DNA of 20,302 nt, from positions 1-20,302 of the IMG/VR virus record IMGVR_UViG_3300006802_000792, one strand, 5' to 3'. Of this stretch, positions 2-16,135 are shown one piece after another. The notes beneath the pieces were generated by a model. That model ran no database searches and was not told the origin of the DNA. It saw only the letters and a program-made list of their open reading frames with translations. This DNA comes from a virus. Position 1 is the first letter of the stretch; each line of letters opens with the position of its first letter. A program made the translations under genes and the position numbers.

Positions 2-391
2 ATACCAGAAAATACAGAACAAAAATATATAGACGAATTAAAAAGACTTCATATCTTATTTGGTAAAAAATATGTGGGTCAGCTTTTTAATGAATATACT
101 CTTTTTGATTGTGGAATGTGGGAAGGGGTAGATGAATTTTCTGCTCAATGGCATAATGACTGGGAAGACGGTGATAAGTTTAATTCTAATATGCTTGTAT
201 ATTTAGATGATACTTATGAATATAAAAACAGTATTGAAATAAAAGGGCCTGGAACCTATCATAAATTATTTCCAAACTCAAATCAACTTTTATGGTTAAA
301 TCAAAAAAAGATGTTTGAACATAAAGCAACACATAATAAAGGAAGACGCCGAGTATTAAGTTTTGAATATTTGATTCCAGCACTATTTTAA
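2..391 (+). CDS. 2OG-Fe(II) oxygenase, C-terminal part (5' end outside the window)
   Basis: The reading frame is open from the left window edge, giving 129 visible codons, so the gene begins upstream; a GTG at 74 is an internal valine rather than a convincing start. The visible part has the layout of a 2-oxoglutarate/Fe(II) dioxygenase core. A His-x-Asp iron-binding motif (WHND, His at about 152-154) is followed by a beta-strand-like stretch (NSNMLVYL), and a distal FEHKATH segment lies near the end, with an Arg about ten residues after its first His (in RRRVLSFEY) suited to binding 2-oxoglutarate. Enzymes of this family hydroxylate or otherwise oxidise proteins, nucleic acids or small molecules; the substrate cannot be told here. 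Its TAA overlaps the ATG of the next mini-gene (TAATG), so it is co-translated with the radical SAM operon. The fold call is fairly secure. Confidence 0.72.
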   Translation: MPENTEQKYIDELKRLHILFGKKYVGQLFNEYTLFDCGMWEGVDEFSAQWHNDWEDGDKFNSNMLVYLDDTYEYKNSIEIKGPGTYHKLFPNSNQLLWLNQKKMFEHKATHNKGRRRVLSFEYLIPALF

Positions 392-504
392 TGGATGAAG
401 TATTACTTTGGCAGTATAGACGTAGTCTTATTAAGTATATTTGTATCAACAATTATTCTCCTAGACACGCGGCTAGAATACTAAATGGAATACCATGGAT
501 TTAA
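391..504 (+). CDS. 37-residue mini-gene, unknown; candidate precursor or partner peptide of the radical SAM enzymes
   Basis: A short ORF starts at the ATG that overlaps the oxygenase stop (TAATG at 389-393) and ends with a TAA at 502-504, inside the start of the first radical SAM gene (ATG at 495). It fills almost exactly the space between the two larger genes. The product begins MDEVLLWQYRRSLIKYI, has a middle NNYSPRHAARIL and ends GIPWI. It is basic and amphipathic, with one Cys, two Trp and two Tyr. No Shine-Dalgarno sequence is visible, so translation would depend on re-initiation. Support for its being real is the stop/start coupling on both sides and the lack of any other use for the interval. 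Small ORFs next to SPASM radical SAM genes are often RiPP precursors, but this one has no recognised leader motif, so that role is only a possibility. It may also be a non-coding remnant. Confidence 0.5.
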   Translation: MDEVLLWQYRRSLIKYICINNYSPRHAARILNGIPWI

Positions 505-1529
505 TAATTAAACCAACTGAGTTATGTAATTTCAAATGTACTTTTTGTTCATCAACTAAACTTGTAGACGATAAGGCGGCTAAGCTAGATCTGTTTAAAA
601 TCTATCAATTCTTAGATAGATTTCCTCACACTAAAACTATTATTGTAAATGGTGGAGATCCATTAATGATGGATCCAAAATATTATATGGAAATCATTTC
701 GTTTTTAGAAAAGAATGATTATCCAGCAACCTTATCACTTACTACCAATCTTTGGCCTTTTTATAAAAATCCACATAAGTGGATGGAAGTCTTTACACAT
801 TATAGGGTTGGAATTGCTACATCATTTCAATATGGTAATGGAAGATTAAAAGGTGATTATTCTGTATTTACAGAAAAAGATTTTTGGAAATGTTCTGATA
901 CCGTATTAAAATATTGTGGTTACAGACCTTCATTTATTGCTGTAATTACAGAAGAAAATGAAGATACTGTACTACAAACAGTGGAATTGGCCAAAAAGAT
1001 GAATGTGGTTTGTAAAGTAAATTATGCCATGGCTTCTGGAGATCAAGATGCTCCATATAGACTTTCCAAAATATATGAAAAATATGTTGAAATTTGGAAA
1101 GCAGGACTTGCAGATTGGGAACATAATACACAACAAATGATGAAAAGGCTACGTGGAGAAGCAACAATATGCCCACAAACACGTACGTGTGATTCCCATA
1201 TTAGAACTATACAACCAGAAGGTGATTATTATTCTTGTGGAGCATTTGGTGATGATAAAGATATGGCTATTGATTTTAATAAAGAAATGGCTGGTGAGTT
1301 TTTTACACCACTAGCCAAAAACTATGAATTAAATTCATTAAAACAATCTTGTTATACTTGCCCTATGTTCCAAATATGCAATGGGTGTAAAAAGACTATA
1401 AAGGATATGAAACAACATAATATGGTAGAAGATCATTGTTTTCATATGAAACAACTAGCCCCTGATATTATTAGATCCAACAAAATGAATTTAACAGTTA
1501 CAGAATATATCAATGAAAGTGTCAATTAA
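495..1529 (+). CDS. Radical SAM protein with C-terminal SPASM domain
   Basis: A 344-residue protein. The radical SAM cluster motif CxxxCxxC is at Cys11, Cys15 and Cys18 (CNFKCTFC), followed by a GGDP version of the SAM-binding GGEP motif at 53-56. The C-terminal part has a full SPASM-like cysteine set: Cys232-x10-Gly-x4-Cys248, then Cys286-x2-Cys289-x5-Cys295-x2-Cys298, and Cys315. This pattern normally binds two extra 4Fe-4S clusters and is typical of enzymes that modify peptides or proteins (anaerobic sulfatase maturase, PqqE and RiPP maturases). The start at 495 puts the first cluster motif at residue 11, the same spacing as in the next gene, which supports it. It overlaps the 37-residue ORF upstream and the next radical SAM gene downstream (17 bp). 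Substrate unknown; class assignment very secure. Confidence 0.92.
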   Translation: MDLIIKPTELCNFKCTFCSSTKLVDDKAAKLDLFKIYQFLDRFPHTKTIIVNGGDPLMMDPKYYMEIISFLEKNDYPATLSLTTNLWPFYKNPHKWMEVFTHYRVGIATSFQYGNGRLKGDYSVFTEKDFWKCSDTVLKYCGYRPSFIAVITEENEDTVLQTVELAKKMNVVCKVNYAMASGDQDAPYRLSKIYEKYVEIWKAGLADWEHNTQQMMKRLRGEATICPQTRTCDSHIRTIQPEGDYYSCGAFGDDKDMAIDFNKEMAGEFFTPLAKNYELNSLKQSCYTCPMFQICNGCKKTIKDMKQHNMVEDHCFHMKQLAPDIIRSNKMNLTVTEYINESVN

Positions 1530-2433
1530 TCCATCTTATTTTTGTAATTTTAGATGTGACTTTTGTTATCTGAAAAAAGAACAACTAGGTGACACTAAAA
1601 AAATAGAATTAAGCCAACTTGAAAATTTATTATCACAAATACCAAATATAGAATATATTGATCTATATGGTGGGGAAATTGGCGCATTAAAGAAAAATTA
1701 TTTTTATGGATTAAAGGATTCCATTCGTAAATTTTATCACGATGAAATAAACATCATTACTAATTTCTCTATGTTACACGAAGGATTTTTTGATGATGAT
1801 GTATATCTATCTGTATCATATGATTTTGAGGCTAGAGAGAAAAGTGATAAAGTATTTCACAATATGTTAATGTCTCCAGTCAAGATAGCAGTACTTATTT
1901 TAGCATCACAGTCTGTAATTAAAATGGACGTGGACAAAATGATAAATAAATTAAACATCTGTTCGTCTGTAGATTCTGTAGAGATAAAACCATATAGTAT
2001 CAATCAAGCAAATTCACATTCTGTGACTCATAAACAATTTGAAGAATTTGTTATAAAATGGCTAGAATCATCCATACCTAAAAAATTCGATTTTATAAAC
2101 AAAATAAGAATTGAAGAAAGTTATAAAAAACTTTATAATGCATTTTCAGATGACCACATTTATATCACACCGAATGGTAAATTTGGAGTTTTAGAGTTCG
2201 ATACAGATGATAAGGAATACTTTTTAGAATTGGATTCATATGATGATTATTTAAAATGGGCTGATAATGAAAAAATAAATTTAAGCCCTATATGTAAATC
2301 TTGTGATTACCACGGCACTTGCTTAACAGAACATTACAGATATGTAAAAGACCTAAATAACTCTTGTAACGGATATAAAGGATTGTTGGACTATTATGCA
2401 AGAATGGCGTATGAGACAAGAGATTTATCATAG
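1513..2433 (+). CDS. Second radical SAM protein, with a reduced SPASM/Twitch-like C-terminus
   Basis: A 306-residue radical SAM protein. The cluster motif CNFRCDFC is at Cys11, Cys15 and Cys18, and GGE lies at 53-55 (DLYGGEIG). The C-terminus has Cys261-x2-Cys264-x5-Cys270 and Cys285, enough for one auxiliary 4Fe-4S cluster. The first SPASM half is missing its cysteines: the corresponding strand at about 216-225 reads IYITPNGKFG with no Cys nearby. It is therefore Twitch-like rather than full SPASM. It overlaps the preceding radical SAM gene by 17 bp and the next gene by 38 bp, so its translation is probably coupled to both. The N-terminus is similar in layout to the preceding gene, suggesting an old duplication followed by divergence. 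The two may act in succession, or as a pair, on one substrate (inference). Confidence 0.88.
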   Translation: MKVSINPSYFCNFRCDFCYLKKEQLGDTKKIELSQLENLLSQIPNIEYIDLYGGEIGALKKNYFYGLKDSIRKFYHDEINIITNFSMLHEGFFDDDVYLSVSYDFEAREKSDKVFHNMLMSPVKIAVLILASQSVIKMDVDKMINKLNICSSVDSVEIKPYSINQANSHSVTHKQFEEFVIKWLESSIPKKFDFINKIRIEESYKKLYNAFSDDHIYITPNGKFGVLEFDTDDKEYFLELDSYDDYLKWADNEKINLSPICKSCDYHGTCLTEHYRYVKDLNNSCNGYKGLLDYYARMAYETRDLS

Positions 2434-2794
2434 ATTAAATAAGGATCATGATGACGATTTAAACAAAATCGATTTTATTTACGACGAGCATTTTGTTGAA
2501 TATAATGTGCTAAGGCATTTTGAAGAACGAATTGATGATTGGTTATATCCAGCAAAATCATATTTTGTGGCTTTTTGTTATGCATATTGGATTAGTGTAG
2601 ATTTTAATGAAAATTTTTGGGAATTGCTAAGGGATCCAAATTTGCTTGCTGGTAATGATCCATTTTTTAAACCATATGATGAAGACCCATCAATTTATAA
2701 TATGTTATTTGATACCATTCAATTCCCAATACCAATGACCGGTATGGTACCGGATGTGAGAAAATATTATGAAAAAGAATTCCACGACATTTGA
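2396..2794 (+). CDS. Unknown 132-residue acidic, aromatic-rich protein in the radical SAM operon
   Basis: I do not recognise this protein. It is acidic and rich in aromatic residues, with an Asp run (DHDDDLNKIDFIYDEHF, about 17-33), a hydrophobic aromatic stretch (SYFVAFCYAYWISVDF, about 55-70) that is short for a membrane helix, and a Pro-rich section near 109-119 (QFPIPMTGMVP). No metal-binding cysteine motif is present; the single Cys is at 61. The ATG at 2396 gives a 38-bp overlap with the radical SAM gene before it; an in-frame ATG at 2411 is an equally possible start that would remove five residues. Its end overlaps the following oxygenase gene by 26 bp. Its place between two modifying enzymes makes it a candidate substrate, chaperone or recognition protein, but nothing in the sequence proves this. 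Confidence 0.75.
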   Translation: MQEWRMRQEIYHRLNKDHDDDLNKIDFIYDEHFVEYNVLRHFEERIDDWLYPAKSYFVAFCYAYWISVDFNENFWELLRDPNLLAGNDPFFKPYDEDPSIYNMLFDTIQFPIPMTGMVPDVRKYYEKEFHDI

Positions 2795-3284
2795 ATTAGG
2801 TATTAATAAGTTTTGGCCAACAGATGTAATGGTTGACGAATTTACCATAACCGATGATTTAATTCAAGAAGGCTTACAAAATATTACGCATGGTATAGAA
2901 AAATTATCACTAAAATATTTTGATAAGTATTTAAATGAAACATTAGGTCATGGACTAGACTATTATAGTGATCATAAATTATCTGCCTGGGTTAACAGAT
3001 ATTCAAAAAATGAAAGTATGGAATACCATACACATTCTGGATCCTGGTTATCTGCTATATTTTATTTGGTAACAAGTGATGATGGTGAACTTGTTTTATA
3101 TGATCCAAGACATTTCGCTGCACGCGGATATGATATGTCTTTTAGAAAATTATTTGAACAAAAAATTTATAAACCAGTAGAAGGGCAACTCATTATGTTC
3201 CCAAGTTTTCTATATCACTCGGTAAGACCTACTAGTAATTTTAGGTTATGTGTACCAGTCGATTTATTCTTATTTAAAGAATAA
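2769..3284 (+). CDS. 2OG-Fe(II) oxygenase (PF13759-like)
   Basis: A 171-residue protein resembling the small phage/marine 2OG-Fe(II) oxygenase family (2OG-FeII_Oxy_5). After a helical N-terminus comes the signature EYHTHSGSWLSAIFYL (about 85-100, with His87 and His89), then a strand with ELVLYDPR (107-114), then VEGQLIMFPSFLYHSVRP (137-154) with the distal iron-binding His150, then the probable 2-oxoglutarate-binding Arg159 in NFRLCVPVDLF. Length and motif order match the family. Members are common in T4-like marine phages but their substrates are mostly unknown. It is the last gene of the + strand operon, starting 26 bp inside the preceding gene, and it runs 11 bp into the convergent fibre gene. 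Together with the oxygenase at the left edge, it brackets the two radical SAM genes. Confidence 0.85.
   Translation: MKKNSTTFELGINKFWPTDVMVDEFTITDDLIQEGLQNITHGIEKLSLKYFDKYLNETLGHGLDYYSDHKLSAWVNRYSKNESMEYHTHSGSWLSAIFYLVTSDDGELVLYDPRHFAARGYDMSFRKLFEQKIYKPVEGQLIMFPSFLYHSVRPTSNFRLCVPVDLFLFKE
3264..3284. repeat. 8-bp perfect inverted repeat over the convergent stop codons
   Basis: TTATTCTT (3264-3271) and AAGAATAA (3277-3284) are exact reverse complements separated by a 5-base loop (ATTTA). Both convergent stop codons lie within it: TAA at 3282-3284 on + and the - strand TAA at 3276-3274. The stem has only one G-C pair and no T-run follows on either strand, so it is at best a weak bidirectional terminator or RNA 3'-end structure. 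It could also arise by chance in AT-rich DNA. Confidence 0.35.
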
Positions 3285-4398
3285 TAGCTTCAACAGTATT
3301 GAATTTATTATCCTCAAGCGCTACTGCAAATGACCATTCATTTTTATTGTTATTAGCCATTGCAATACCATTATCTGTAGGGATCAATCGATCGCCTTTA
3401 TAAACAGTACCGGAAACTTTAACTTGTACTCTACCTTTAAGTGCAACAGGTACAACAAATTCACCTTTACCAGCAATTAGATTTTGATTCATTAAAATAG
3501 CAGGTTTTTCAGAAACAACTCCAATGACTGAATGTGCTCTATCATAGGTTCCTTTTGTTATTTCTTTTGATCCACCAACTGCCACAACAGTACCAACTTC
3601 TAATTCCTCATCACAAAGATAATTTTCTGCCAAGTCAGCCCATTTTGCTCTTAATGCAGTTCCAATAAAATCAATAGCATACATTGCACGCCATTCTCTA
3701 TTAGAAGCACCAATATCGTGGCTTGTATATGCTCCAGTTGGATGACTCCAACCATGGTTACTGTCGAACACAGGCATAATATCTCTAGTCAGAAAACGTT
3801 GAGCAGAGTCAAACCATGCTACAGGATCATTATTACGATTAAATAATAATCTTTTTCCTGGATGGCCTGGGAAATATTGACCAGATGCATCAGCAGATTC
3901 CTCTGTGATTGACCATTCATCAAAAATTAATCTGTCAGATTCCAAATCAATTTGATTAAATGTTGCATACTTATAACTAATACTGTCACCACGTAAACGA
4001 ACAATGGTAGCAGAATCAATATAAGCACTATCAACTGAAAGATGCGAGATGTATGCACTATCAACTCTTAGGAAGTGTGCATAAATGCTATCTGCATTAA
4101 TATCCCCACCATATAGACTATCAAAATTCAATGTGTTAATATATGCACTTTCTGCTCGAAGAGCATTAAAATCTGCGCTGTCAACATTAATATATTTAAA
4201 TCCAGCACTATCACCTAGTACTGTTTGTAATTGTGAATCTAAAAAGTTGATTACACTTACAATATTAGAGTCTGTATTATTGGCAGCAAATCTAGGATTT
4301 ATATCATCTAGGTCACCTATGTAATCCGACATTGCATTTGTTTTTTGAACAAACGTGCCTAGTGAATTAGTTAAGTCTACAAGAATTTTACGAGCCAT
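3274..4398 (-). CDS. Tail fibre protein with decapeptide DSA repeats
   Basis: A 374-residue protein with three parts. Residues 1-60 are an N-terminal attachment-like region starting MARKILVDLTNSLG. Residues about 61-130 are a regular ten-residue repeat of the form xVDSAYIxxL. The C-terminal part contains DIGASNREWRAMYA followed by ADLAENYLCDEELEVGTVV and VIGVVSEKPAILMN, a C-terminal layout I associate with fibre proteins of marine T4-like phages. Such domains often assist trimerisation or form the fibre end. It is the last gene of the - strand cluster; its start overlaps the previous stop by 1 bp (TAATG) and a GAGAG stretch lies upstream as ribosome-binding site. It would lie at the tail baseplate or fibre network and may contact the host surface. 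The fibre role is inferred from repeats and context; no receptor-binding motif can be named. Confidence 0.75.
   Translation of the reverse strand: MARKILVDLTNSLGTFVQKTNAMSDYIGDLDDINPRFAANNTDSNIVSVINFLDSQLQTVLGDSAGFKYINVDSADFNALRAESAYINTLNFDSLYGGDINADSIYAHFLRVDSAYISHLSVDSAYIDSATIVRLRGDSISYKYATFNQIDLESDRLIFDEWSITEESADASGQYFPGHPGKRLLFNRNNDPVAWFDSAQRFLTRDIMPVFDSNHGWSHPTGAYTSHDIGASNREWRAMYAIDFIGTALRAKWADLAENYLCDEELEVGTVVAVGGSKEITKGTYDRAHSVIGVVSEKPAILMNQNLIAGKGEFVVPVALKGRVQVKVSGTVYKGDRLIPTDNGIAMANNNKNEWSFAVALEDNKFNTVEAIIL
4009..4218 (-). repeat. Decapeptide (30-bp period) repeat array in the fibre gene
   Basis: In the encoded fibre, the Asp/Glu of the D/E-S-A/L/I triplet falls at residues 63, 73, 83, 93, 103, 113 and 123, an exact ten-residue period over seven units (for example NVDSADFNAL, RAESAYINTL, RVDSAYISHL). 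At DNA level the units share pieces such as gcactatcaac (near 4026 and 4056). The strict period suggests a beta-solenoid or trimeric beta-helical shaft. Confidence 0.8.
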
Positions 4399-4604
4399 TA
4401 CAATCTCTCTACTATTTGGTTAAGCATTTCTTTTATGTCTTGCACATCTTTTTTTAATTCATCAATTTCTTTTTCTTTTTCTTTCCTTAATGCCTTAGCT
4501 TTCTTTGCTTTTTCTATGGTTGCATTATCCATATTCAAAATAGCATTATTTCTAAGATCTCTTATAAGGGTCGATGAACCTTCTACTCTTGCATATCTTC
4601 TCAT
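4398..4604 (-). CDS. Small coiled-coil protein (68 residues), probable structural or assembly factor
   Basis: A small, strongly charged protein. The N-terminus (MRRYARVEGSSTLIRDLRNN) is followed by an Asn/Asp-containing linker, and residues about 28-68 form a Lys/Glu-rich helix with heptad-like spacing (KALRKEKEKEIDELKKDVQDIKEMLNQIVERL in outline), a likely coiled coil. Short proteins with an N-terminal TLIRD-type segment and a helical tail are frequent among structural genes of marine T4-like phages, where they are left as hypothetical. It overlaps both neighbours by 1 bp (TAATG at each junction), so it is translated together with the giant structural protein and the fibre. A connector between these two, or an assembly chaperone, would fit, but this is inference. 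The reading frame is well supported by the gap-free packing. Confidence 0.78.
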   Translation of the reverse strand: MRRYARVEGSSTLIRDLRNNAILNMDNATIEKAKKAKALRKEKEKEIDELKKDVQDIKEMLNQIVERL

Positions 4605-7600
4605 TATACCGCCAGTGCAATAATTCTAAGATCTCTAAATGTTGGCACTTTGGCCGCATTAGTAGATTTCATTACAATTTTCAAAGTGAATTTAGTGAAT
4701 GCATTACTTAATCCGCTTTGACCTCCGATTAAATATTCATATTCTCTAAAGATGTTTGGATTTTCATCTGTAGGTAAATTGTTTTCTGGGGCAATATAAA
4801 CCCAATTTGTATCCTCGAAAGCCACATCTTCTTCCACTGCTTTATAATAAAGATCAAATGCTGCTTCTTGAGGTACGTTAGCACCAATTAGAACCTTTAA
4901 TCCAATAGCAGGATTTTCCAAAGTTACAGGTCTTACGATGTGTTTTGCAACGTGTGAACCACCAGTAGGATCTGTTTCATCAGCATAGTTGATTGGTAGA
5001 TTTCTATTACCAGTTAATACCCCAAGTGAACCAGCAGAATCCTGGAAATCAATATTATTGTGGATCATCCACAATGATGATCTTTGCATATCCAAAACAG
5101 GACTTACATTTGCATCAGTGGTTGATAAAGTTACAGTAACTGTAGCAGATCTAGAACCACCCATTTCGGCAACTTCTTGACCTCTATTTGCCACCATTTT
5201 TACAACAGAGAAGCTATTATTTTCTCTCATATCTAATTCTGTATCAACCGCGTCCTTTAAATATGGAGTTTCAGATCCTGCAAGTGATTTACCTGAAGTA
5301 AATTTGCCTTTAATATTTAAATTTGTTGATTGTGGAACCAAATTTTCAATAAATGGCACTACGGTTTCGAACATATAATTTCTGGATGCTCGAGCATCGG
5401 TTCCACCAAAACTAAATGCACTACTACTTCCATTTGTAGCTCCTGCATTAAATTTGAAACTATTCTCATCAAGGGCAATAACATTACGGTTACCAAGGAT
5501 ATCTGTTCCCAAAATACCGCCACCATAGTTAGTAGCAGAATCCAAACCAGCAAATGTTACAATGTCACCAGAATCAAAACCATGATTTGCCTGAACTACT
5601 GTAACAACCTTTGAACTACCAGCAATTGTAAATGGATTGGTTGTCAATAATTGTTGAGGTACATTGGAATTTTCCAATACTACTGTAGCACCTGCAGTAT
5701 TAAAGTTTGCTTTATATATCTGGAACATTAGATCTTTTGTTTGAGCAGGTTCCCAAGTTGAAGCATTTTGTGATTTAAATAAGGAACCAAGTGTAGGTTG
5801 TTTTGAAACCTTTTTAGCAGTTGATCCTAAAATAAACTGTTCTGTTTCAGCAATGAAAACATTATATCTTGTTGATTCTGCTTTTAGAACAATAGCATAT
5901 TCCGTGAAAGGTAATAGATATGCTGGCTCATCAAATATAAAATCTGTACCGACTGATGCATCAGATGATGTATTAACGGATGATGGTGGTAAATATTTCA
6001 CGGTACCAGGTACAGTTGTATCTGATGATGGTTGTCCATTTACCATTGGTCTTATTTCACATGATACAGGTACTGTTCCATCTTTGGTTTGGAAGAATAC
6101 TCTCACCTTTGTAATAAAGATACCATTATCTTCATCTACAAAGAATGATTGTGCCAGTGGATCAAATACCATCCGATGTGTTCTAGATGTACCAGCAACA
6201 GTAATAACTCGAGTTGATAAAATATCTCTTTGACGAGTTTCTAAAACACCAGTTGATGTAAATTGTGCAGTTGCAATTGAAATTGCATCAGCATCATTAT
6301 TTGCAGAAATGTCCATTAATTTAAATTCTCTTTGGCCAGTTCTGAATCTTTTAGCATTAGAATTAGGAATAAAGAAAGATCCCTCAACTTCACCCTGTGC
6401 ATTACTGTATAGTGCAGAAGGCGTTTCTGGGTGTTGAGTAGCATTATTATATCTGCTACCATAATCATCAGGCTGAGTAGCCATTCTTTGGAATGATTCA
6501 GAACGAACCCAATTATCTACTCTTTGTCCATCAAAATATGCCCACATTCTAACATTAGGTGCAATACCCTCTGCCTTGAACCAAACTTTTCTAGATCTCA
6601 TGAATGGAATAAGAGCAACATTTACTACTCGATCACCAATTTGTTCTCTTACAATTTCATCTCTTACAACTGTATCTGTAGTTACCGTTCTAGTTGCTAC
6701 GCGGCCGCGCCTTTGCCAACCAGTATCTGTTTGAGCAAGTTGTTGTCCAACTCTTAAATTATTAATTCTATTACCTTGCCAGTTCCAGTTCCAGTTATTC
6801 CAAAGTAATGATTGCCTAGTATCCAAACGAGTACCACCATTGATAACTCTATTTGCTACATAAACAACTTCCTTCCAGTTATCTGAACCTGGTGAAAGGT
6901 TAATAATGCCTCTGTTTGTAATAACCGCAAATGGATTAATATTTTCAGTACCAGATGCCAAAGGTTGGTCAATATACAATGCATCAGTATGTGCAATATA
7001 TACATTATCACCTTTTAGAATAGCATTTGTAGATAAAGAAGAATCGTACCTTAAATTAATTGATTCTTCATTAAAAATAGGTCTTAAAATTTGTTCTCTA
7101 GGATCAATAGCAGCTCTATATTCCTGATTTACTGTATCAGAAGCTACATGATCACTGAAGTTATCAACTAGGAAACCAGACTTTGTTCTATCATTACCAA
7201 TAGAATCAAATACTGCAAAGGTAGCAGCATCATTTTCCAAAAGACTTAATGTCGTAAATTCTTCCAGGTTTTCAATTCTTTCTTCCAATTTAGCAATATC
7301 TCGCATAGTGAAACCTTTGGCTTCAATATTTTGAATTGTTAAATCGGTAGCATCTGTAGTACCAGGATTGAATTTAACATTGTATAATTCCAAACTGTTT
7401 GCCGGAATAGGTGGGTATTGTGGATTTAGTGAAGGAGTACCAGTCAACAGTGCTATATTAGCTTGTTCATCAATTACGAGTTTATCAAATCTTGGCAAAT
7501 AATATTCAGTATCTGCAGTAATAAGACTTGTATTAATAGGAACTTCGTTCACTCTAGCAGTACCGGCACTAAAATTAGAATTTGTATCATCTTTACGTGA

Positions 7601-9673
7601 TCTAAAATCTAGTACATCATATAAAGGAATATCAGTTCCGTTACCTAATGTATGAATAGGAATATCACCATAATTAATACCACCATATGAACTAGCAGCA
7701 AAATAATGGCCATTTGGTGAATGTGTAAAATAATTAAATCTTACAAAAACATTTCCGCTAGGTACCGCAGCATTACCTTTTAACAAAAGTCTTCCAGTTT
7801 CATAAAAATTATCTCTTGCACCTTTATCCAAGATAAAATCATTTGAAAGATCTGCACCATTGGAGTCAACTGCTCTAATTCTTGTAACATCATAAATGTC
7901 TGCTTTAGCTAAATCAATATATCTAGCACCACTTGACGGAGTAATAATAGTGGTTGTTCTGGTAGTATTTGTAAGAGTTTTTGTTCTTAAAATACCGTCT
8001 TTTTGAACATGAACTAAAGCTTCAATTGAGGTACTTGAAGGACCACCAGTAATTGAAGCAGAATTTGTACCAACACCTGTAATTGAACTAGGTGTAAATG
8101 TTGCTCCACCACCACCGACTGCAGCAAAAATCCATTGTGTTGAAGTTGAATAAACTTCATTAGCACCAAGTGTTGGTAGTGAAGCATTACCTGAACCATC
8201 TGTCGTTGCGGTTACACGTCTTTGTGTTGTAAGGCTCACGTCCGTAATTGATTTTACACGCTCTTGTGGGAACGGGAACAATAGATTATTATTAACAGCA
8301 TTTTTCTGTACAGCAATACCGTTTTCTAAAATTAAATCAAAATACTGATCTGTGCTAGTACCAATAGATTTTGCATCTCTAAAGTTTTGGCCAGAATTCA
8401 TCTTGATATCCATCAGATAAAATCTATAATTTGCACCATCTTCTTCTACTGCTTTAACTCTACAAGTACCAATAGTAGAACCACCGTGAGTAACTGCATT
8501 ACGAATATTTTGTAATTCAAATGTATCTACGTTTGGTAAACCAGCAAATGTTGATGATAAAACATAGTTACCATATGATGCAGCAATTGGCTCAGAATTA
8601 ATTGTTGTTGTGGTAAGAGATTTATCCACATTAAGTTTAATTGGTGATCCCTTTGAAGCTCTATAACCATTTACATATGCAACACCTGCACTTACATCCA
8701 TAACCAATTTAGTATTATCGGAATCGTGTTCATCAAATTCAATTTTAAATGCTTGTTTAATAAAGTCCCCGTTAATTTCTTTTGTACGAAGAGCATTAAA
8801 ATCTCTAATTTTATTATAGTCTTCAGTTCCAGTAACGGCTTCAATTAGAACACCATTTCTAATTTTACCAAAATAAACAAATGTATCTGCAGAATCAATT
8901 TGTGACTCAAGTGCTAAAGTTAATGTAATTCTATATCTGTCAGCGCCTGGTGCAGTAAGGTTTGGTAATAATCCTTGATTATCATAAAGTGCAGTTGTAT
9001 CATCAACTGTAACTACATCTTGAGTTACAATAAATCCAACTACTTCTGTAGGAGTAGATGAATATTTTGAAATAAGAATTTTTTGATTATCTGCCTGTAC
9101 AAAATGTCCTTGTGTAAAAAACGTACCTCTATGAACTGAACCAATAGTACCTTTACCAATTGCTGGATTACTAAGTGTATTTGTTGTTTGAACAGTAAGT
9201 GTTACAGAAGTTGCATTACCAACAATATTTTCACCAGGCGTAAATCTAATTGGAGTAGCACCAGATGTACCGGCAAGGGAATTAGTGTATTTTACATATA
9301 CAGTAGCAGGATCGGCCCCATCAACTGGTTCGACTTGTAATATTTGTGCTTGAATACCGGAAGTTTGACCAACAAAAGTATCTCCAACCATTGCTGCAGT
9401 ATTAACCGGTAACGTATTTGATGAGGTATTTAATTTAACAAATTCGTATGCATTATTAACGGTCATACCACCAGGAACAACTGCGGCACCTTCTTTAAAA
9501 ATATTTCTACCAAACCTTTCCAACTCACGCTGGATAATGGTTTGCATTTGAGTAAGCTCTCGGGCTTGTAATTGCCGTCCACTGTTAAATAGAATCCGAT
9601 GATAGTGATCACTATCTCTAAAATCGTCCCTATATCTTGTGGCGAATAGTTGTTCGGTATATTGTATAGCCAT
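4604..9673 (-). CDS. Giant DUF4815-type virion structural protein (baseplate)
   Basis: A 1689-residue protein. Its N-terminus (YRDDFRDSDHYHRILF, then SGRQLQARELTQMQTIIQRE) matches the start of DUF4815 phage structural proteins, in which a short RILF-type strand is followed by an LQ..EL..MQ helix. Long beta-rich stretches follow. A predicted coiled coil (IAKLEERIENLEEF) lies near residues 790-810, and a Trp/Asn-rich stretch (WNNWNWNW) near 955-965. Then comes a region with IPFMRSRKVWFKAEG and VRMWAYFDGQRV that recurs in very large marine myovirus proteins. The C-terminus is again beta-rich. Encoded right after gp8 (9-bp gap; an AAGGG ribosome-binding site precedes the ATG), it is most likely a baseplate wedge or peripheral baseplate component, perhaps replacing T4 gp7 or gp10. 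That correspondence is position-based only. Confidence 0.8.
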   Translation of the reverse strand: MAIQYTEQLFATRYRDDFRDSDHYHRILFNSGRQLQARELTQMQTIIQRELERFGRNIFKEGAAVVPGGMTVNNAYEFVKLNTSSNTLPVNTAAMVGDTFVGQTSGIQAQILQVEPVDGADPATVYVKYTNSLAGTSGATPIRFTPGENIVGNATSVTLTVQTTNTLSNPAIGKGTIGSVHRGTFFTQGHFVQADNQKILISKYSSTPTEVVGFIVTQDVVTVDDTTALYDNQGLLPNLTAPGADRYRITLTLALESQIDSADTFVYFGKIRNGVLIEAVTGTEDYNKIRDFNALRTKEINGDFIKQAFKIEFDEHDSDNTKLVMDVSAGVAYVNGYRASKGSPIKLNVDKSLTTTTINSEPIAASYGNYVLSSTFAGLPNVDTFELQNIRNAVTHGGSTIGTCRVKAVEEDGANYRFYLMDIKMNSGQNFRDAKSIGTSTDQYFDLILENGIAVQKNAVNNNLLFPFPQERVKSITDVSLTTQRRVTATTDGSGNASLPTLGANEVYSTSTQWIFAAVGGGGATFTPSSITGVGTNSASITGGPSSTSIEALVHVQKDGILRTKTLTNTTRTTTIITPSSGARYIDLAKADIYDVTRIRAVDSNGADLSNDFILDKGARDNFYETGRLLLKGNAAVPSGNVFVRFNYFTHSPNGHYFAASSYGGINYGDIPIHTLGNGTDIPLYDVLDFRSRKDDTNSNFSAGTARVNEVPINTSLITADTEYYLPRFDKLVIDEQANIALLTGTPSLNPQYPPIPANSLELYNVKFNPGTTDATDLTIQNIEAKGFTMRDIAKLEERIENLEEFTTLSLLENDAATFAVFDSIGNDRTKSGFLVDNFSDHVASDTVNQEYRAAIDPREQILRPIFNEESINLRYDSSLSTNAILKGDNVYIAHTDALYIDQPLASGTENINPFAVITNRGIINLSPGSDNWKEVVYVANRVINGGTRLDTRQSLLWNNWNWNWQGNRINNLRVGQQLAQTDTGWQRRGRVATRTVTTDTVVRDEIVREQIGDRVVNVALIPFMRSRKVWFKAEGIAPNVRMWAYFDGQRVDNWVRSESFQRMATQPDDYGSRYNNATQHPETPSALYSNAQGEVEGSFFIPNSNAKRFRTGQREFKLMDISANNDADAISIATAQFTSTGVLETRQRDILSTRVITVAGTSRTHRMVFDPLAQSFFVDEDNGIFITKVRVFFQTKDGTVPVSCEIRPMVNGQPSSDTTVPGTVKYLPPSSVNTSSDASVGTDFIFDEPAYLLPFTEYAIVLKAESTRYNVFIAETEQFILGSTAKKVSKQPTLGSLFKSQNASTWEPAQTKDLMFQIYKANFNTAGATVVLENSNVPQQLLTTNPFTIAGSSKVVTVVQANHGFDSGDIVTFAGLDSATNYGGGILGTDILGNRNVIALDENSFKFNAGATNGSSSAFSFGGTDARASRNYMFETVVPFIENLVPQSTNLNIKGKFTSGKSLAGSETPYLKDAVDTELDMRENNSFSVVKMVANRGQEVAEMGGSRSATVTVTLSTTDANVSPVLDMQRSSLWMIHNNIDFQDSAGSLGVLTGNRNLPINYADETDPTGGSHVAKHIVRPVTLENPAIGLKVLIGANVPQEAAFDLYYKAVEEDVAFEDTNWVYIAPENNLPTDENPNIFREYEYLIGGQSGLSNAFTKFTLKIVMKSTNAAKVPTFRDLRIIALAV

Positions 9674-9682
9674 CTCTAACCC

Positions 9683-11032
9683 TTAGAACTGAATAATTAC
9701 TTTAATATCTTCCGATTGAACATTGGATCTCAAAATAGGTGCTCTATTATCAATATAAAGAATATCACCACTATTAGGATCAGTAAGTGGTGGAATTAGT
9801 GCAGAATCACTAATTCCCTCACCAAGTCCATTCGTTTCTTCAATAATTTCACCATCTTGGAAAGCAACAAATCCAGTACTATCCGTTTGGTGATAATATA
9901 ATTCATTACTGTCAACATTATCTATATATGCTTCAGCTAATGTTGTTTGACCTCTAATTCTTTTATCTCTTGTAAAACCATTAATAATTGTTGCTAGTGT
10001 CATTTTCTTTAATGTATTACCAGTTTCTGCAGTAAAGATACTACCTGCTGCATCTCTAATATCTTTAATGAGAGACACTTGTCTGAAATCCTGATTTACA
10101 ATAAAGTTACTGTCTGTGCCTTCAATTGTTGTGGCAAACATAATTGATGAGGATTTAAGATCTACACGGCAATCTGCACCAATGCCAGAATCTGGTCCTA
10201 GGACTGCTCTAGCAGTTGCAGTAGTTACTGCACCACCACCAGTAATTGCAACTGCAGCTTTTGTATATCCGCTTCCAAAATTCAAAGATGTACCACTATC
10301 ACGCATTGAGATTTTTGATAGTGTTCCAGTAGCAGAATCAATATATGCAATTGCACGTGCTCCACTACCACCAGTGCCCGTAATAGTAACAGTTGGGGCA
10401 GAGGTATATCCAGAACCAACATCAGTAATAATTACTGAAGTTACAGCACCAGCAATTGCTGTATCTTGTATTTCTTTTTGTTTTAATTGAATACCAGTTG
10501 AAGATGAATCAGTCGCGCCTTGCTTTTGCACTGGTAAGAAATTTGAAGACATAAAAGCATTTGCTCTTGATGCACTTACTGTAAATAAGAATTTCCAAAC
10601 ATAACCATCTGCAGTTCTAAAAGCATCATTATTTGATCCTGTAGGTTCAACTGTTGAAGGTACTGCAATACCAAGATTATTTCTACCAGTTTCCAAACAC
10701 ATATAAACGTTATTATTTTCATTAATAACATAATATGAAGGATTTGGATAACCTTGTTGGGTATCATCATATTGTGAATAAATGGAACCATTTGACCAAT
10801 TTGTCCTTGGTACAACCAATGAAGTAGCCTGAACACGTTTTACAGACTGCATTTGGTTTCTTACTGCTTCAATTTGTCCAGGAGTATTAATTGGTGTTGG
10901 CACATTATCTGAACTATCCCACTGTTCCGATCTACCAATACCAATATAATATCTAGCAGTAGCATTGGCAAATTGATCATAAAATTGCCTTGCCAATAAA
11001 GCTTTAAGTGAATCAGTTACAATTGCTGGCAT
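9683..11032 (-). CDS. 8: Baseplate wedge protein gp8
   Basis: A 449-residue homologue of T4 gp8 (334 residues). Shared landmarks, from memory of T4 gp8, are YYIGIGRSEQW near residues 28-38 (T4: FITFGRSEPW), VVPRTNW at 73-79 (T4: VIPRRDW), DGYVWKFLF at 142-150 (T4: DGYVWEYLF) and the C-terminal GDILYIDNRAPI (422-433; T4: GEMIYMENRPPI). gp8 dimers join the wedge to the inner baseplate and the control region for sheath contraction. This copy is over 100 residues longer than T4's. Most of the excess is an insertion around 196-280 with two GSGYT/AxVxITG beta repeats. The ribosome-binding site AAGGA (11044-11040) overlaps the upstream fibre stop. Identification is secure. Confidence 0.9.
   Translation of the reverse strand: MPAIVTDSLKALLARQFYDQFANATARYYIGIGRSEQWDSSDNVPTPINTPGQIEAVRNQMQSVKRVQATSLVVPRTNWSNGSIYSQYDDTQQGYPNPSYYVINENNNVYMCLETGRNNLGIAVPSTVEPTGSNNDAFRTADGYVWKFLFTVSASRANAFMSSNFLPVQKQGATDSSSTGIQLKQKEIQDTAIAGAVTSVIITDVGSGYTSAPTVTITGTGGSGARAIAYIDSATGTLSKISMRDSGTSLNFGSGYTKAAVAITGGGAVTTATARAVLGPDSGIGADCRVDLKSSSIMFATTIEGTDSNFIVNQDFRQVSLIKDIRDAAGSIFTAETGNTLKKMTLATIINGFTRDKRIRGQTTLAEAYIDNVDSNELYYHQTDSTGFVAFQDGEIIEETNGLGEGISDSALIPPLTDPNSGDILYIDNRAPILRSNVQSEDIKVIIQF
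10193..10447 (-). repeat. Inserted tandem beta repeat within gp8
   Basis: Residues about 196-280 of gp8 carry two related units: VGSGYTSAPTVTITGTGGSG (205-224) and FGSGYTKAAVAITGGGAVTT (252-271). Each is followed by an ARAxAxx/TARAVLG strand. T4 gp8 has no such segment. GSGYT-type repeats recur in phage structural proteins as add-on beta domains, so this is probably a surface decoration domain inserted between the gp8 halves. Confidence 0.65.
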
Positions 11033-11042
11033 GATTTATTCC

Positions 11043-12731
11043 TTAACTTTCTAATGCTCTTAATATTACGGAGTGATTTTCGGTTGTCATCCCGGTGTCA
11101 TTTGTGATATTACAATGGATTTTATCCCCTGCATTATATGATATATTTAATGTTTCATTTAAGAATACATTTCCTGCACTGGTCACTTCAACAGATACTC
11201 CTGTCTGATAAGAATTATTTTTATAAATTGCAATTGAATGTGTTAAACTACCACCAGAATGTGAGGATGCTTCAGCAGACATTGTAATGTTACTTAATAT
11301 ACCAGCAACTGGTAAAACAACACCTTGTGGTGAATTTGATCCATCCGGGCCCAATAAACGAGAAGCTATTGCCCCACCGACGTGTTGGGCATCTAATCCA
11401 AATTGCCAATAAACTGGTTTATTATAAGTACCAGCAACCACATTTCTATCTAGTGCAAACCATCCATCACTATCCTTAAATTCAAATGTATGATCTGTTT
11501 TATTGTAATGAATAGCACCATTTGTTGCACCAGAGGTATTTCTGCTTGAAGTTGTATTATTACCCAAGTGGAACCAACCAGTATTACCCCAGCCGGCGAA
11601 AATAGTATTTGCAGAATCACCAACATATATGTAACCGTTAGTACCTGCCGTAAATATAGGCGCGCCATCGATGGTTTCAAATCTTACATCTTTACCACCT
11701 GCAGGTCTAATTCTAAGATGATCCGATGAAGATTGAATTACATTCGATCCAAGATCCATAGAATTGGCTACAACAATTTCAGCATTAATAGGAACACCAA
11801 AATTGATATTAGAACCATCATTAGTAATTGTTGTATTACCTAGGAAAATTGTACTACCCGAAAGGTGTAAATCTTTCCATTTATTAGTTGGAGAACCAAG
11901 ATCATATGTACTGTCAGCAGCTGGAATTAGATCTTGTGCAATATTACCAAATGCTTGACTGATATCTGAATCTGTACGAGATTTGGTATAATATAAATTG
12001 GCACCTTCGGTCAAATCAGCAGTTGTTTTAGTTCCAAAATTAGAATCAACTCTTGCATCTGTATAATATAAATTGGCCGGATTTTCAGTAACATCACCTG
12101 TATTTAATGCTGCTTGGTTTGATAATAGAAAATCAATATCATATCTATTTGCAGTGATGTCACTATCATGATCAGCTCTCAGTACGTTTACAGCACTATC
12201 AATATATGGTTGGAATTCACCAGGAGTTCCAAATACTTGTCTAGCTTGAACATATGCACTATCAACCGCGGCTAGTAATTCAGCAGAGTCAATTGTAATT
12301 GCAACAGCTCTAGCAGAATCAATAGAATTAGCATAAATTAATTGTAGGATTTCATTTTCATCTTTTAATTCATAACCAGAATTTTTGATATTCAAGATAT
12401 AATTTCGGTTAATAATTCTACCAATATCATCTACAAAAGCAACTTCGCCACTACTATCTCTTAAGGTAATTGTATTGATTTGTGTTGGATCTTCTGGAAC
12501 CAATCTTGTTGCAGTACCAAATGAATCCTGTGTAGACCCATCAAACATAATACCATAATAACCATAACCAATACCGTTAGCAACTGCAACACCAGTTGTT
12601 GCAAGTGAAATGTTATCAACAGCTGAATACAGTTCCTGGAAGTTATCATTAATTTTGGTAGCGCCTGTTCTTAAATCATCACCAGCGCCGTCATTCGCGT
12701 ATGAACCAGTATTAATAATTTTTCTAGCCAT
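11043..12731 (-). CDS. Tail fibre / baseplate fibre protein
   Basis: A 562-residue fibre-type protein. The N-terminus (MARKIINTGSYANDGAGDDL, then RTGATKINDNFQELY) is a common attachment module of phage tail fibres. DSA-containing stretches lie at about 137-180 and a 25-residue repeat with NLYYTDAR (220-227) and NLYYTKSR (245-252). A fibre motif DSTYDLGSPTNKWKDLHL (273-290) follows, then a C-terminal Gly/Ser-rich beta domain (from about 430) that may be the distal tip. It is the first gene behind the clear late promoter and lies just ahead of gp8, where T4 has baseplate and short-fibre genes. Its N-terminus begins MARKI like the fibre at 3274-4398, so they may attach to similar sites. Role in host contact is inference. 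Confidence 0.8.
   Translation of the reverse strand: MARKIINTGSYANDGAGDDLRTGATKINDNFQELYSAVDNISLATTGVAVANGIGYGYYGIMFDGSTQDSFGTATRLVPEDPTQINTITLRDSSGEVAFVDDIGRIINRNYILNIKNSGYELKDENEILQLIYANSIDSARAVAITIDSAELLAAVDSAYVQARQVFGTPGEFQPYIDSAVNVLRADHDSDITANRYDIDFLLSNQAALNTGDVTENPANLYYTDARVDSNFGTKTTADLTEGANLYYTKSRTDSDISQAFGNIAQDLIPAADSTYDLGSPTNKWKDLHLSGSTIFLGNTTITNDGSNINFGVPINAEIVVANSMDLGSNVIQSSSDHLRIRPAGGKDVRFETIDGAPIFTAGTNGYIYVGDSANTIFAGWGNTGWFHLGNNTTSSRNTSGATNGAIHYNKTDHTFEFKDSDGWFALDRNVVAGTYNKPVYWQFGLDAQHVGGAIASRLLGPDGSNSPQGVVLPVAGILSNITMSAEASSHSGGSLTHSIAIYKNNSYQTGVSVEVTSAGNVFLNETLNISYNAGDKIHCNITNDTGMTTENHSVILRALES
11986..12077 (-). repeat. 17-bp direct repeat spaced 75 bp (25 codons) in the fibre gene
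   Basis: The sequence gtataatataaattggc occurs at 11986-12002 and again at 12061-12077. The spacing of 75 bp equals 25 codons and corresponds to the NLYYTDAR / NLYYTKSR repeat of the protein. Such in-frame repeats allow shaft length to change by recombination. Confidence 0.75.
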
Positions 12732-12745
12732 TTTATATCCTACAG

Positions 12746-12758
12746 TAGAGTTACTCTA
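12746..12758. repeat. Small palindrome in the leader of the fibre mRNA
   Basis: TAGAG (12746-12750) and CTCTA (12754-12758) pair around a 3-base loop. It starts directly next to the late promoter box and would lie at or very near the 5' end of the transcript, where a short hairpin could protect the mRNA or bind a regulator. The stem is only 5 bp. Confidence 0.4.
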
Positions 12759-12766
12759 TATTTATA
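12759..12766 (-). promoter_or_regulatory. T4-type late promoter
   Basis: The minus strand reads TATAAATA, the exact T4 late promoter box recognised through gp55 and gp33 with the sliding clamp. It lies in the only sizeable intergenic gap (12732-12780), 27 bases before the fibre ATG, with an AGGA ribosome-binding site between. It would drive the fibre, gp8, DUF4815, coiled-coil and DSA-fibre genes as a late unit. Confidence 0.8.
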
Positions 12767-12780
12767 ATGTTTTTAATGAA

Positions 12781-13848
12781 TTATGATTTAATAATTAATG
12801 GAATATATCCAGAAGCAACATAATTTCCTGGGCCTGAAACATAAGAAGCATATGTTTCAAATTCTGCCTGATCCAGTTTTTCATATGTATTATCAAAAGT
12901 AAGGCCTGTTCCATTCGAATCAAATGCACTTGACCAATGTATACCATAATCTGTAAGTTCCTTTAGATTCTTATATGCAGAACCCAAATTGGCAAGTGAA
13001 GTATAAACTCTATTACCAACACTTGCAGCAACTGCAGAATCAGTAAAGTGTTCTAATAGTCTATATGGATTTGTTCTAAATTGTGGTATGTTAATGTGAC
13101 CACTACCAGAAACATAACTACCAATCCAATGATTATTTAGGTGACTTGCTTCACCAGCACCAAGCTGATTATCTAATATAGCAGTTTCCGTAACAAATTT
13201 AATATTTTTAAATGGATCTGGAACAGATTCGTCTACGGTAATTTCGATTGGATCGGGAATACCTTCCAATACAACTTTACCGGAAAGATAAAATCCAGAT
13301 GGATGCACAAATTTTCTATATAATTCTTCCCAAAAAGCAAATGAAATTGGAGATTTAATTAAAACGGAAAATATTTGATTTATGGCACCATCTTGTGTAA
13401 TATATCCATCATCTGTACCAATTGTCGAAGAACCTATTGTAAATAATTTATCTTTAGGATAAACGACTTCAACGTTTTCATTAAAAAATGCTCTAAAGAA
13501 ACCTTCTGCAGAAAAAATAGTACCTTTTACTCTAAAAAAATTACCAAAGTTTCTAATTGCTTCTCTTGGCTTTTGAACTTTATCACTTGAAATACCAAGG
13601 GCAAGTTCATTAAATAAAAGATCTAATTTTTCTAAATCTGTATCTTCAAAATCTCTAATAGTTTGCAGTTCATTAATGATACCACCTGGCATTTCATCTG
13701 AATCCAAATTATCATAATAACCTTCCAAAAATGAAATTAAATTTGGATAATCGGTTTGATAATATTCAGGGAGTACTTCTTGAATTGAACTTTTTCTAAA
13801 ATTCACACCAAGACGGTTGTAATCTCTTAATGTTTCACTATTAGACAT
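12781..13848 (-). CDS. Virion structural protein, baseplate region (355 residues)
   Basis: A 355-residue protein of a type found in baseplate clusters of T4-like marine and other environmental phages. Early residues carry LPEYYQTDYPNLISFLEGYYDNLD (outline, about 25-50), followed by a helical part with an FRVKGTIFSAEGFFRAFF segment (about 107-124) and NVEVVYPKD (129-137). In related phage proteins a comparable FYRAKGT...LFR..Y...VEI.YPK pattern occurs. The second half is more beta-rich and ends with PLIIKS. Its start overlaps gp6 by 8 bp and uses GGAAATAG as ribosome-binding site. It sits just after gp6, where T4 has gene 7, so it may be part of the wedge; I see no sequence match to T4 gp7, which is far longer. 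The unit ends just before the late promoter at 12759. Confidence 0.72.
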   Translation of the reverse strand: MSNSETLRDYNRLGVNFRKSSIQEVLPEYYQTDYPNLISFLEGYYDNLDSDEMPGGIINELQTIRDFEDTDLEKLDLLFNELALGISSDKVQKPREAIRNFGNFFRVKGTIFSAEGFFRAFFNENVEVVYPKDKLFTIGSSTIGTDDGYITQDGAINQIFSVLIKSPISFAFWEELYRKFVHPSGFYLSGKVVLEGIPDPIEITVDESVPDPFKNIKFVTETAILDNQLGAGEASHLNNHWIGSYVSGSGHINIPQFRTNPYRLLEHFTDSAVAASVGNRVYTSLANLGSAYKNLKELTDYGIHWSSAFDSNGTGLTFDNTYEKLDQAEFETYASYVSGPGNYVASGYIPLIIKS

Positions 13849-15679
13849 CTATTTCCAACGTTGTTGTTTGACGATCAATAATTGCAGTTGATGATGATTT
13901 TGATGCATCAATAGAAAACACATAATTTCTTAAAGGCTTTATTGTTGCTTCGTTCTCTGGTTTTACAGATAATTTAATATAGTTAACACCAAACAATAAT
14001 CTTTGAGGTTTAAAGCCAATAATATTTACAATTCCAGTTGTAGGATTATATTCACCTACGTTATCTGCTAAAACATTTCCATCTAGATCATATATTTGCA
14101 ATGTTCTGCTATTTAATTTATTTCTTAATTGACCAACTACACCACCATATTCAAACGTAGTAGATACAACTGTGTTTTCAATATCATCTGGTACAGCAAT
14201 CCTCATTGGGAATTTAAGTTCATGTTGAGTGGAAACATTTAATGTAGGAATAAATCTTAGTTGTGCTTTTACTTCAACTCTAGATGATAAAATTGCTGGC
14301 GATAAAGAATCTATTTCACTTGCAATTACTGACCTACGATATACAGAATCGAATTTATTTAGATTTGTAGTTAAATATGAATTTTGGAAATTATATACTT
14401 GTGTTTCAGTTGCCTGAACAGTATCGCCAGTTAATGCTGGATCAAAATTAAATTCGGTATTTAATTCAAGAAATACATTAATTGGGTCTATAAATTCTGT
14501 TTTAATAGACATAACAGAAAGATTGGAAGTAAAGTTTGTTACAATACTATTTTTAATTGCAGTTTGTGTTGAAACTGGAGTTCCACTTGCAAATTTTAAT
14601 GAAACAAAAACTTTACCATAATCAACTGGTATATTTTGATCACCACTCCAAACCGCAACATCTTCTACATCTGTGTAATTACTTTGAATAATTGCTTTAT
14701 AATCTAGTGATGTTACAAGTCTTTGTTGTGATGCATATGCATATGGAGCCAACTGTTTAATGGATTCCATTGATTGTTTATTAGCACCGCCCGTAGCTAC
14801 TGCTACGGTCGTAGTGGCAATATTATAGTTAATTCCACTTACAGTTAATTGGTTTGATGGAATGAAACCACTAGCAGTATTTGCAGCTGGCCCTTTTGTT
14901 GAAAGATATGTTACAACAATTTTATTACCGGCATCTGGTGATTTACCAAATGAAATACCATCACCAAAGTTTAATTCATAATATCCATTTGGTACTTCTT
15001 TAATTGCAAATAAAGTTGAGTTTTCGTTGACTTGTACAGCATCTTTAATAGGAGAATAATTAACAAAATTGGAAGATGATGCATTATCATATACTCTTAC
15101 AACAGCTGTATTTTTATCTATATTTACATCTGGTATAACATAAATTTGTCTTTCAGATTTATCCGGTGCAAAAAATGTTTTAGTTTTTTGAGTACCTTCA
15201 TAAATTGGAATATCATATGAACCATTTGCAGTTGTAAATCTATAAATACCCGCTCCAACATCCTTAGCAATATAGCTTTCAATTGTTCTAAAGGTATAAG
15301 TGGTACCGTCTACTTGTGCAGTAAATGAAGTTCCAGCAGGTAATGATATTGCTGCAGGTCTATTTACAACACCACTTAAATTAACTGATAAATTTACTAA
15401 TCCTTTTGCAGCAGTCCTTGATCTAATATCATAACCTAAATTTTCAGCATGCGAAACAACCGAACTTCTTAATTGTGCTGTATTAAGAAATGATTCATTA
15501 ATACCAAAATTGGCTGTTAATGCATTCAAGTGTGTATTATAAGCTAATACATCTAAAATATTTGATAACCCAGAGGCTTCAAAATCGTAATCTGTCCATT
15601 CCGGTTTTTGTCTCAGATAAGTTTTTAACTTATTTTTAATCTGTTCAAAATCTAGATCAGATGCATTGACGTGTACCAT
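13841..15679 (-). CDS. 6: Baseplate wedge protein gp6 (baseplate J-like)
   Basis: A 612-residue protein close to the length of T4 gp6 (660). The N-terminus has the family pattern: DFEQIKNKLKTYLRQKPEWTDYDFEASG, with the loop around SGLSNILDVLAYNTHLNA (about 38-55) and NESFLNTAQLRSSVVSHAENLGY (about 61-83, outline). These are typical of gp6/baseplate J proteins. The middle and C-terminal part is beta-rich, with a further J-like region (SLDYKAIIQSNYTDVEDVAV, about 321-340). gp6 forms the inner ring of the wedge and ties neighbouring wedges together. It follows gp25 without a gap (stop TAA next to the ATG), and a GAGG ribosome-binding site lies inside the gp25 end. The pairing of genes 25 and 6 supports the call. 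Confidence 0.9.
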   Translation of the reverse strand: MVHVNASDLDFEQIKNKLKTYLRQKPEWTDYDFEASGLSNILDVLAYNTHLNALTANFGINESFLNTAQLRSSVVSHAENLGYDIRSRTAAKGLVNLSVNLSGVVNRPAAISLPAGTSFTAQVDGTTYTFRTIESYIAKDVGAGIYRFTTANGSYDIPIYEGTQKTKTFFAPDKSERQIYVIPDVNIDKNTAVVRVYDNASSSNFVNYSPIKDAVQVNENSTLFAIKEVPNGYYELNFGDGISFGKSPDAGNKIVVTYLSTKGPAANTASGFIPSNQLTVSGINYNIATTTVAVATGGANKQSMESIKQLAPYAYASQQRLVTSLDYKAIIQSNYTDVEDVAVWSGDQNIPVDYGKVFVSLKFASGTPVSTQTAIKNSIVTNFTSNLSVMSIKTEFIDPINVFLELNTEFNFDPALTGDTVQATETQVYNFQNSYLTTNLNKFDSVYRRSVIASEIDSLSPAILSSRVEVKAQLRFIPTLNVSTQHELKFPMRIAVPDDIENTVVSTTFEYGGVVGQLRNKLNSRTLQIYDLDGNVLADNVGEYNPTTGIVNIIGFKPQRLLFGVNYIKLSVKPENEATIKPLRNYVFSIDASKSSSTAIIDRQTTTLEIDV

Positions 15680-16120: not shown

Positions 16121-16135
16121 TTTTTATCCCTGTCA

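Follow-up and report, generated by a model that had tools for sequence, protein, structure and literature searches.

The genes at one end of this phage contig are probably the 3' half of a RiPP-like maturation operon, whose likely substrate is the CHxS tail of S7, a probable virion protein. This conserved set of radical SAM (rSAM) and iron oxygenase genes occurs in many phages from water and soil and also in a few predatory bacteria, almost always together with a protein ending in CHxSCHxSCHxSRGRR. The analysis directly gives the gene content of the set, the co-occurrence of its genes, the near-invariance of the tail and its predicted disorder, and synteny with fibre and baseplate genes; the tail as substrate, S7 as a virion component, the order and chemistry of the steps, and the biological role are inferred.

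Window genes and their enzyme families

The window, meaning the whole stretch of DNA that was analyzed, is a complete virus record of 20,302 bases. The contig end cuts the 5' side of OXY1 and, because the window is the entire record, everything 5' of OXY1 is lost. Six overlapping ORFs occupy positions 2 to 3284 of the plus strand (Table 1). A first-pass annotation had placed them at the same positions, head to tail and adjoining tail genes, and this description holds. Successive ORFs overlap by 1, 10, 17, 38, and 26 nucleotides, OXY2 overlaps the convergent fibre gene by 11 nucleotides, and the neighboring T4-like operon has PHROG matches between 3.3 and 20 kb to baseplate wedge subunits, a baseplate hub/lysozyme, and a fibre connector. 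The six-gene set is real, but it is the 3' half of a longer operon and not the whole. The C terminus of fib374, the protein encoded next to OXY2, is weakly similar to Peptidase_G2, an autoproteolytic cleavage domain, with a score just under the Pfam cut-off.

Table 1. Features of the window
Feature	Coordinates	Strand	Description
OXY1	2..391	+	2OG-Fe(II) oxygenase, OXa family; open at 5' contig end, 129 aa present
MINI	391..504	+	37-residue ORF; DNA-level conservation in L005 and L007 only
RS1	495..1529	+	Radical SAM/SPASM enzyme, 344 aa
RS2	1513..2433	+	Radical SAM, single auxiliary-cluster cysteine set, 306 aa
P132	2396..2794	+	Conserved partner protein, predicted all-helical; phrog_20737
OXY2	2769..3284	+	2OG-Fe(II) oxygenase, OXb family, PF13759
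fib374	3274..4398	-	Tail-fibre-like protein
T4-like baseplate/tail operon	4398..20093	-	PHROG matches; module context

RS1 passed the Pfam Radical_SAM cut-off (PF04055; 33.0 bits against 29.5), and RS2 fell below it (28.0 bits). Both matched phrog_1802, at 2.6e-53 and 4.5e-27, respectively. In 76 sequences, the CxxxCxxC motif of RS1 (C11, C15, and C18) and a complete set of SPASM cysteines are each at least 97% conserved. The set is C232-x10-G243-x4-C248, C286-x2-C289-x5-C295-x2-C298, and C315, in which the last spacing is X2, compared with X3 in the reference pattern CX9-15GX4C - CX2CX5CX3C - C. The SPASM model TIGR04085 scored RS1 at 26.3 bits, just under its cut-off of 27. In 74 homologues, RS2 has C11, C15, and C18 of CxxxCxxC plus only C261, C264, C270, and C285. 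The first reading of these cysteines as SPASM in RS1 and reduced SPASM in RS2 was therefore right. In Atu_ph07 (NC_042013.1, 116018-116905), the annotation of RS2 starts too far downstream and gives only a shortened hypothetical protein.

OXY2 passed the PF13759 cut-off (57.6 bits against 27) and belongs among the marine myovirus 2OG-Fe(II) oxygenases (phrog_81, PF13759). Here, however, the gene is part of a recurring multienzyme operon with an apparent peptide substrate. OXY1 scored 16.6 bits against PF13640, below the cut-off of 27, and matched phrog_19592 at 8.6e-9. RS2 and OXY1, the two proteins below their Pfam cut-offs, each have close conserved families. Among 102 homologues, the HxD...H...R residues of the OXa family (H51, D53, H107, and R116) are present in at least 96%. 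The H...H...R residues of the OXb family (H87, H150, and R159) are at least 97% conserved in 102 homologues, of which 82 also have H89. The iron-ligand and 2OG-binding residues of 2OG-Fe(II) oxygenases are thus conserved in both families.

The first-pass annotation had listed the mini-peptide and the 132-residue protein among possible substrates, and both are unlikely. P132 was predicted to be all-helical (pLDDT, 92), a structure search gave no PDB match, and its conservation is spread along the whole protein. Since it is confidently folded, P132 looks like a partner and does not look like a flexible, general substrate. MINI was found only in the two closest relatives, L005 and L007, and is absent from the other relatives. 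Its DNA in L005 and L007 differs from that of the window at 4 of 102 positions, whereas divergence in the same comparison is 34 to 41% at the end of the preceding oxygenase gene and about 20% where RS1 begins. The segment of about 110 bp (window 391-504, L005:2586-2699, and L007:5897-6010) is 95 to 96% identical across contigs in which the flanking genes differ by 20 to 40%. It may have been recently exchanged, or it may be an element constrained at the DNA or RNA level. By its distribution, MINI is clade specific and lies outside the general module, a separate small puzzle.

Distribution of the module and the longer operon

We scanned IMG/VR with RS1 and kept the best 80 of 257 related stretches. 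RS1, RS2, and P132 occur together in nearly all sufficiently long loci of this set, and this recurrence argues from gene content against a grouping by chance. Identity to the window proteins is 61 to 78% for RS1 in marine relatives, mostly 48 to 73% for RS2, and mostly 42 to 57% for P132. When RS1, RS2, P132, and two further radical SAM proteins of the module (RS3 and RS4) were searched separately against 50,697 phage records, each matched the identical seven, from jumbo phages: Burkholderia phages S13, FLC6, and FLC8, Agrobacterium phage Atu_ph07 (two records), Sinorhizobium phage Phosso, and Pseudomonas phage DT01. The first-pass annotation had named a lack of co-occurrence in related phages as grounds for refuting the pathway; RS1, RS2, and P132 do co-occur, in related and unrelated phages alike, and the proposal passes this test.

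Gene calling and clustering of the related loci defined the larger operon. Its recurring order is cupin, RS4 (SPASM), S7, U4, U6, RS3, often a B12-type radical SAM protein, 2OG oxygenases, RS1, oxygenase, RS2, P132, and oxygenase, followed by fibre genes. Complete clusters encode at least four radical SAM proteins (often including one of the B12 type, which resembles C-methyltransferases), several 2OG oxygenases, and a cupin. The pairing of two radical SAM enzymes with two oxygenases noted at first pass is present in the window but understates the set. In the Burkholderia jumbo phages, the radical SAM cluster encloses two genes with DHFR domains (Pfam scores of 159 and 74 bits; L001:5855-7032); at the other loci, the recurrent clusters include no DHFR family.

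Individual module genes are listed without a function in the papers on FLC6 (PMC8066314), S13 (PMC11898562), and RP12/RP31 (PMC5468394). In the open-access library that was searched, we found no description of the module, the tail, or such a viral pathway.

S7 and its C-terminal tail

S7 has about 190 residues and is variable over most of its length, but its C terminus reads CHxSCHxSCHxSRGRR, in which the x and S positions vary slightly. Its gene lies outside the window, 5' beyond the contig end, and we infer its presence from L006, the record of L007, and L008. In a cluster of 45 sequences that was defined by sequence similarity, every member has the tail CHxxCHxxCHxxRxRR. Among 32 nonredundant members, chosen independently of the motif, mean pairwise identity is 86% in the last 16 columns and 40% elsewhere. 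The serines of the tail are encoded by both AGY and TCN codons; therefore, the tail is conserved as a peptide and not as DNA. The proteins at the same position in S13, Atu_ph07, Phosso, and DT01 share the tail but differ in length and N terminus, so that all four isolated phage lineages have a CHxS-tailed protein.

AlphaFold placed most of the S7 body above 90 pLDDT and the tail at 53 to 58, predicting a folded N-terminal domain followed by a disordered C-terminal tail. S7 had no family match in Pfam or NCBIfam, and a structure search gave no PDB match. The best viral matches in that search include Atu_ph07 gp170, the counterpart that lies outside the S7 sequence cluster and was matched by fold.

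Of the 59 records that carry RS1 and are at least 12 kb long, 56 have the tail (one of these tail searches used a slightly looser pattern, and some records are near-duplicates, so that the counts are not independent events), and a reversed control pattern gave 0 matches. Two of the three tail-less records, L058 and L059, look nearly identical in gene order to L057, whose longer record carries the tail; the third is a 22.8-kb fragment. This regular company with RS1 makes the tailed protein a candidate substrate. In the other direction, a search with just the tail pattern found 137 loci in which an ORF finishes with the tail, and module radical SAM genes are in the stretch for 129 of them. Invariance of the tail in loci fetched this way is by construction, and independent evidence for it comes only from the RS1-derived set and the clustering. 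A dedicated modification pathway, proposed at first pass, is thus strongly supported by co-occurrence across unrelated phages and by a near-invariant tail within the module; the modification itself is our proposal.

Some loci depart from the usual arrangement. In L117 (8105-8938), the tail has four C-H repeats (CHSNCHSNCHSNCHTNRSRR) compared with the usual three. A variant module with two tandem tail proteins of about 130 residues and several RS10-type radical SAM proteins occurs in L087, L110, L119, L138, L150, L152, L157, L160, L170, and others, and most of the records examined encode RS1 too. A gene of the tryptophan halogenase family lies inside the module in 4 of 46 records searched (L064, L065, L068, and L107). 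The CHxS tail contains tyrosine in L064, L065, and L068 but not in L107. This gives a hint of a link between halogenase and tyrosine, although most records with a tyrosine tail have no halogenase and the three carriers are related.

The genomic context of S7 points to the virion. At 60 tail loci the sequence extends 4.5 kb or more upstream, and in 43 of them this upstream part encodes homologues of the window's fibre and baseplate proteins, usually on the same strand. S7 is usually directly downstream of fibre or baseplate genes, and in many relatives the gene directly upstream is a fib374 homologue. ESI-MS/MS of Atu_ph07 virions defines the clusters CDS 31-76, 170-215, and 284-329 (PMC6102473). 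By these boundaries, the second cluster begins with gp170 (we checked the numbering against gp181, a baseplate wedge subunit), and it is likely that gp170 itself was detected in virions. S7 is probably a late, virion-borne protein. Of the substrates suggested at first pass, a virion protein is the option favored by this evidence, although the protein concerned is encoded outside the window.

The tail also occurs in 9 of 369 genomes of the phylum Bdellovibrionota, with titles mostly of Bacteriovoracaceae and Bdellovibrionaceae. These bacterial loci (L208, L209, L213, L218, L220-L223, and L225) each encode one CHxS-tailed protein with radical SAM genes beside it, and in L220 and L222 the neighboring genes include close relatives of RS1. 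The stretches examined from these genomes have no obvious phage structural genes, suggesting that the virion may not be the sole context of the module.

Related systems, alternative roles, and a proposed mechanism

Among the nearest known systems is HxS (HxsA/HxsB/HxsC/HxsD), which combines a His-x-Ser repeat protein with a pair of radical SAM maturases. RS4 and RS1 are weakly similar to HxsB and HxsC. However, the HxsB and HxsC models scored below their cut-offs (33.1 against 370 bits and 27.5 against 267.9 bits, respectively), the HxsA and HxsD models had no match, and the module is phage borne, with a C-H-x-S repeat, a fixed RxRR end, and many more enzymes. In NCBIfam, RS1 is most similar to DynA, over the greater part of the RS1 protein; DynA with DarE represents the dynobactin and darobactin SPASM maturases. 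The score was far below the cut-off (NF041298; 56 against 450 bits), and the module differs in its substrate and in having several radical SAM and 2OG enzymes. Polytheonamide-type (proteusin) clusters also combine radical SAM, B12-radical SAM, and Fe(II)/2OG oxygenase enzymes. In contrast to proteusins, S7 has no leader family known to Pfam or NCBIfam, and it has a folded, variable N-terminal domain and a phage structural context. The viperin equivalog scored at most 20 to 32 bits against a cut-off of 180, and none of the radical SAM proteins reached an equivalog cut-off in NCBIfam. A viperin or other defence identity was rejected, as PADLOC gave only weak pVip matches. As judged by these profiles, the module has none of the diagnostic features that were tested for HxS, dynobactin, proteusin, and viperin.

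The tail of S7 might be modified and then cut off as a free small peptide, such as an inhibitor of the host or of a competing phage, with the N-terminal part as its leader. The enzyme set resembles those of RiPP clusters, with weak similarity to SPASM, PapB, DynA, and B12 C-methyltransferases, and the near-invariant C-terminal tail is core-like. However, the N-terminal 175 residues of S7 are predicted to be a confident fold that varies in length and sequence, the gene adjoins those for fibre and baseplate, and its counterpart gp170 opens a cluster of virion proteins. Among the conserved genes we also found no protease, no exporter or other transporter, and no known recognition domain, so that the module can be called RiPP-like but not, so far, a classical RiPP. 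Release of a peptide is therefore unlikely.

It is harder still to credit that the tail stays unmodified as a tip for binding metal or a cluster, with a different virion protein, for example the adjacent fibre, as the target of the enzymes. Cysteine and histidine repeats are plausible metal ligands and the fibre gene does adjoin the module, but the near-invariant partner of the enzymes is the tail and not the fibre, both across phages and in the Bdellovibrionota with adjoining radical SAM genes. Least credible is a pathway for a small molecule, nucleic acid, or nucleotide (MoaA-, QueE-, or viperin-like, or DNA hypermodification) with S7 as an unrelated linked gene, because the weak N-terminal similarity of the radical SAM proteins to MoaA and viperin profiles and the two DHFR-domain genes of the Burkholderia phages are set against a complete SPASM set in RS1, missed equivalog cut-offs throughout NCBIfam, the tight association of the tail with RS1 and the other radical SAM genes (56 of 59 and 129 of 137), and the lack of DHFR among recurrent clusters elsewhere.

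Thus, we favor maturation of the S7 tail on the particle. Cross-linking, C-methylation, and hydroxylation are known chemistries of these enzyme families, and the 2OG enzymes of the module are hydroxylase-like. The C-H-x-S repeats would be modified stepwise by the radical SAM enzymes and the Fe(II)/2OG oxygenases, with radical cross-linking, C-methylation, and hydroxylation as the simplest sequence. P132, U4, and U6 may be recognition or scaffold proteins, and the outcome would be a tailored, perhaps metal-binding, tip on the particle. More tentatively, it is possible that tailed phages and a few predatory Bdellovibrionota use such a multienzyme radical pathway to build a heavily cross-linked, methylated, and hydroxylated CHxS tip (perhaps halogenated in some phages) that serves entry or attachment.

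Widespread and unexplained phage genes for radical SAM proteins and 2OG oxygenases are now tied to a concrete candidate substrate, a protein with a near-invariant tail of 16 residues. The function of the genes can be tested directly by mass spectrometry with phages that are already in culture. If our proposal is true, viruses carry out elaborate radical chemistry on peptides of their own virions, and the module would supply enzymes, a protein tag, and an element of phage entry or attachment biology, all of them new.
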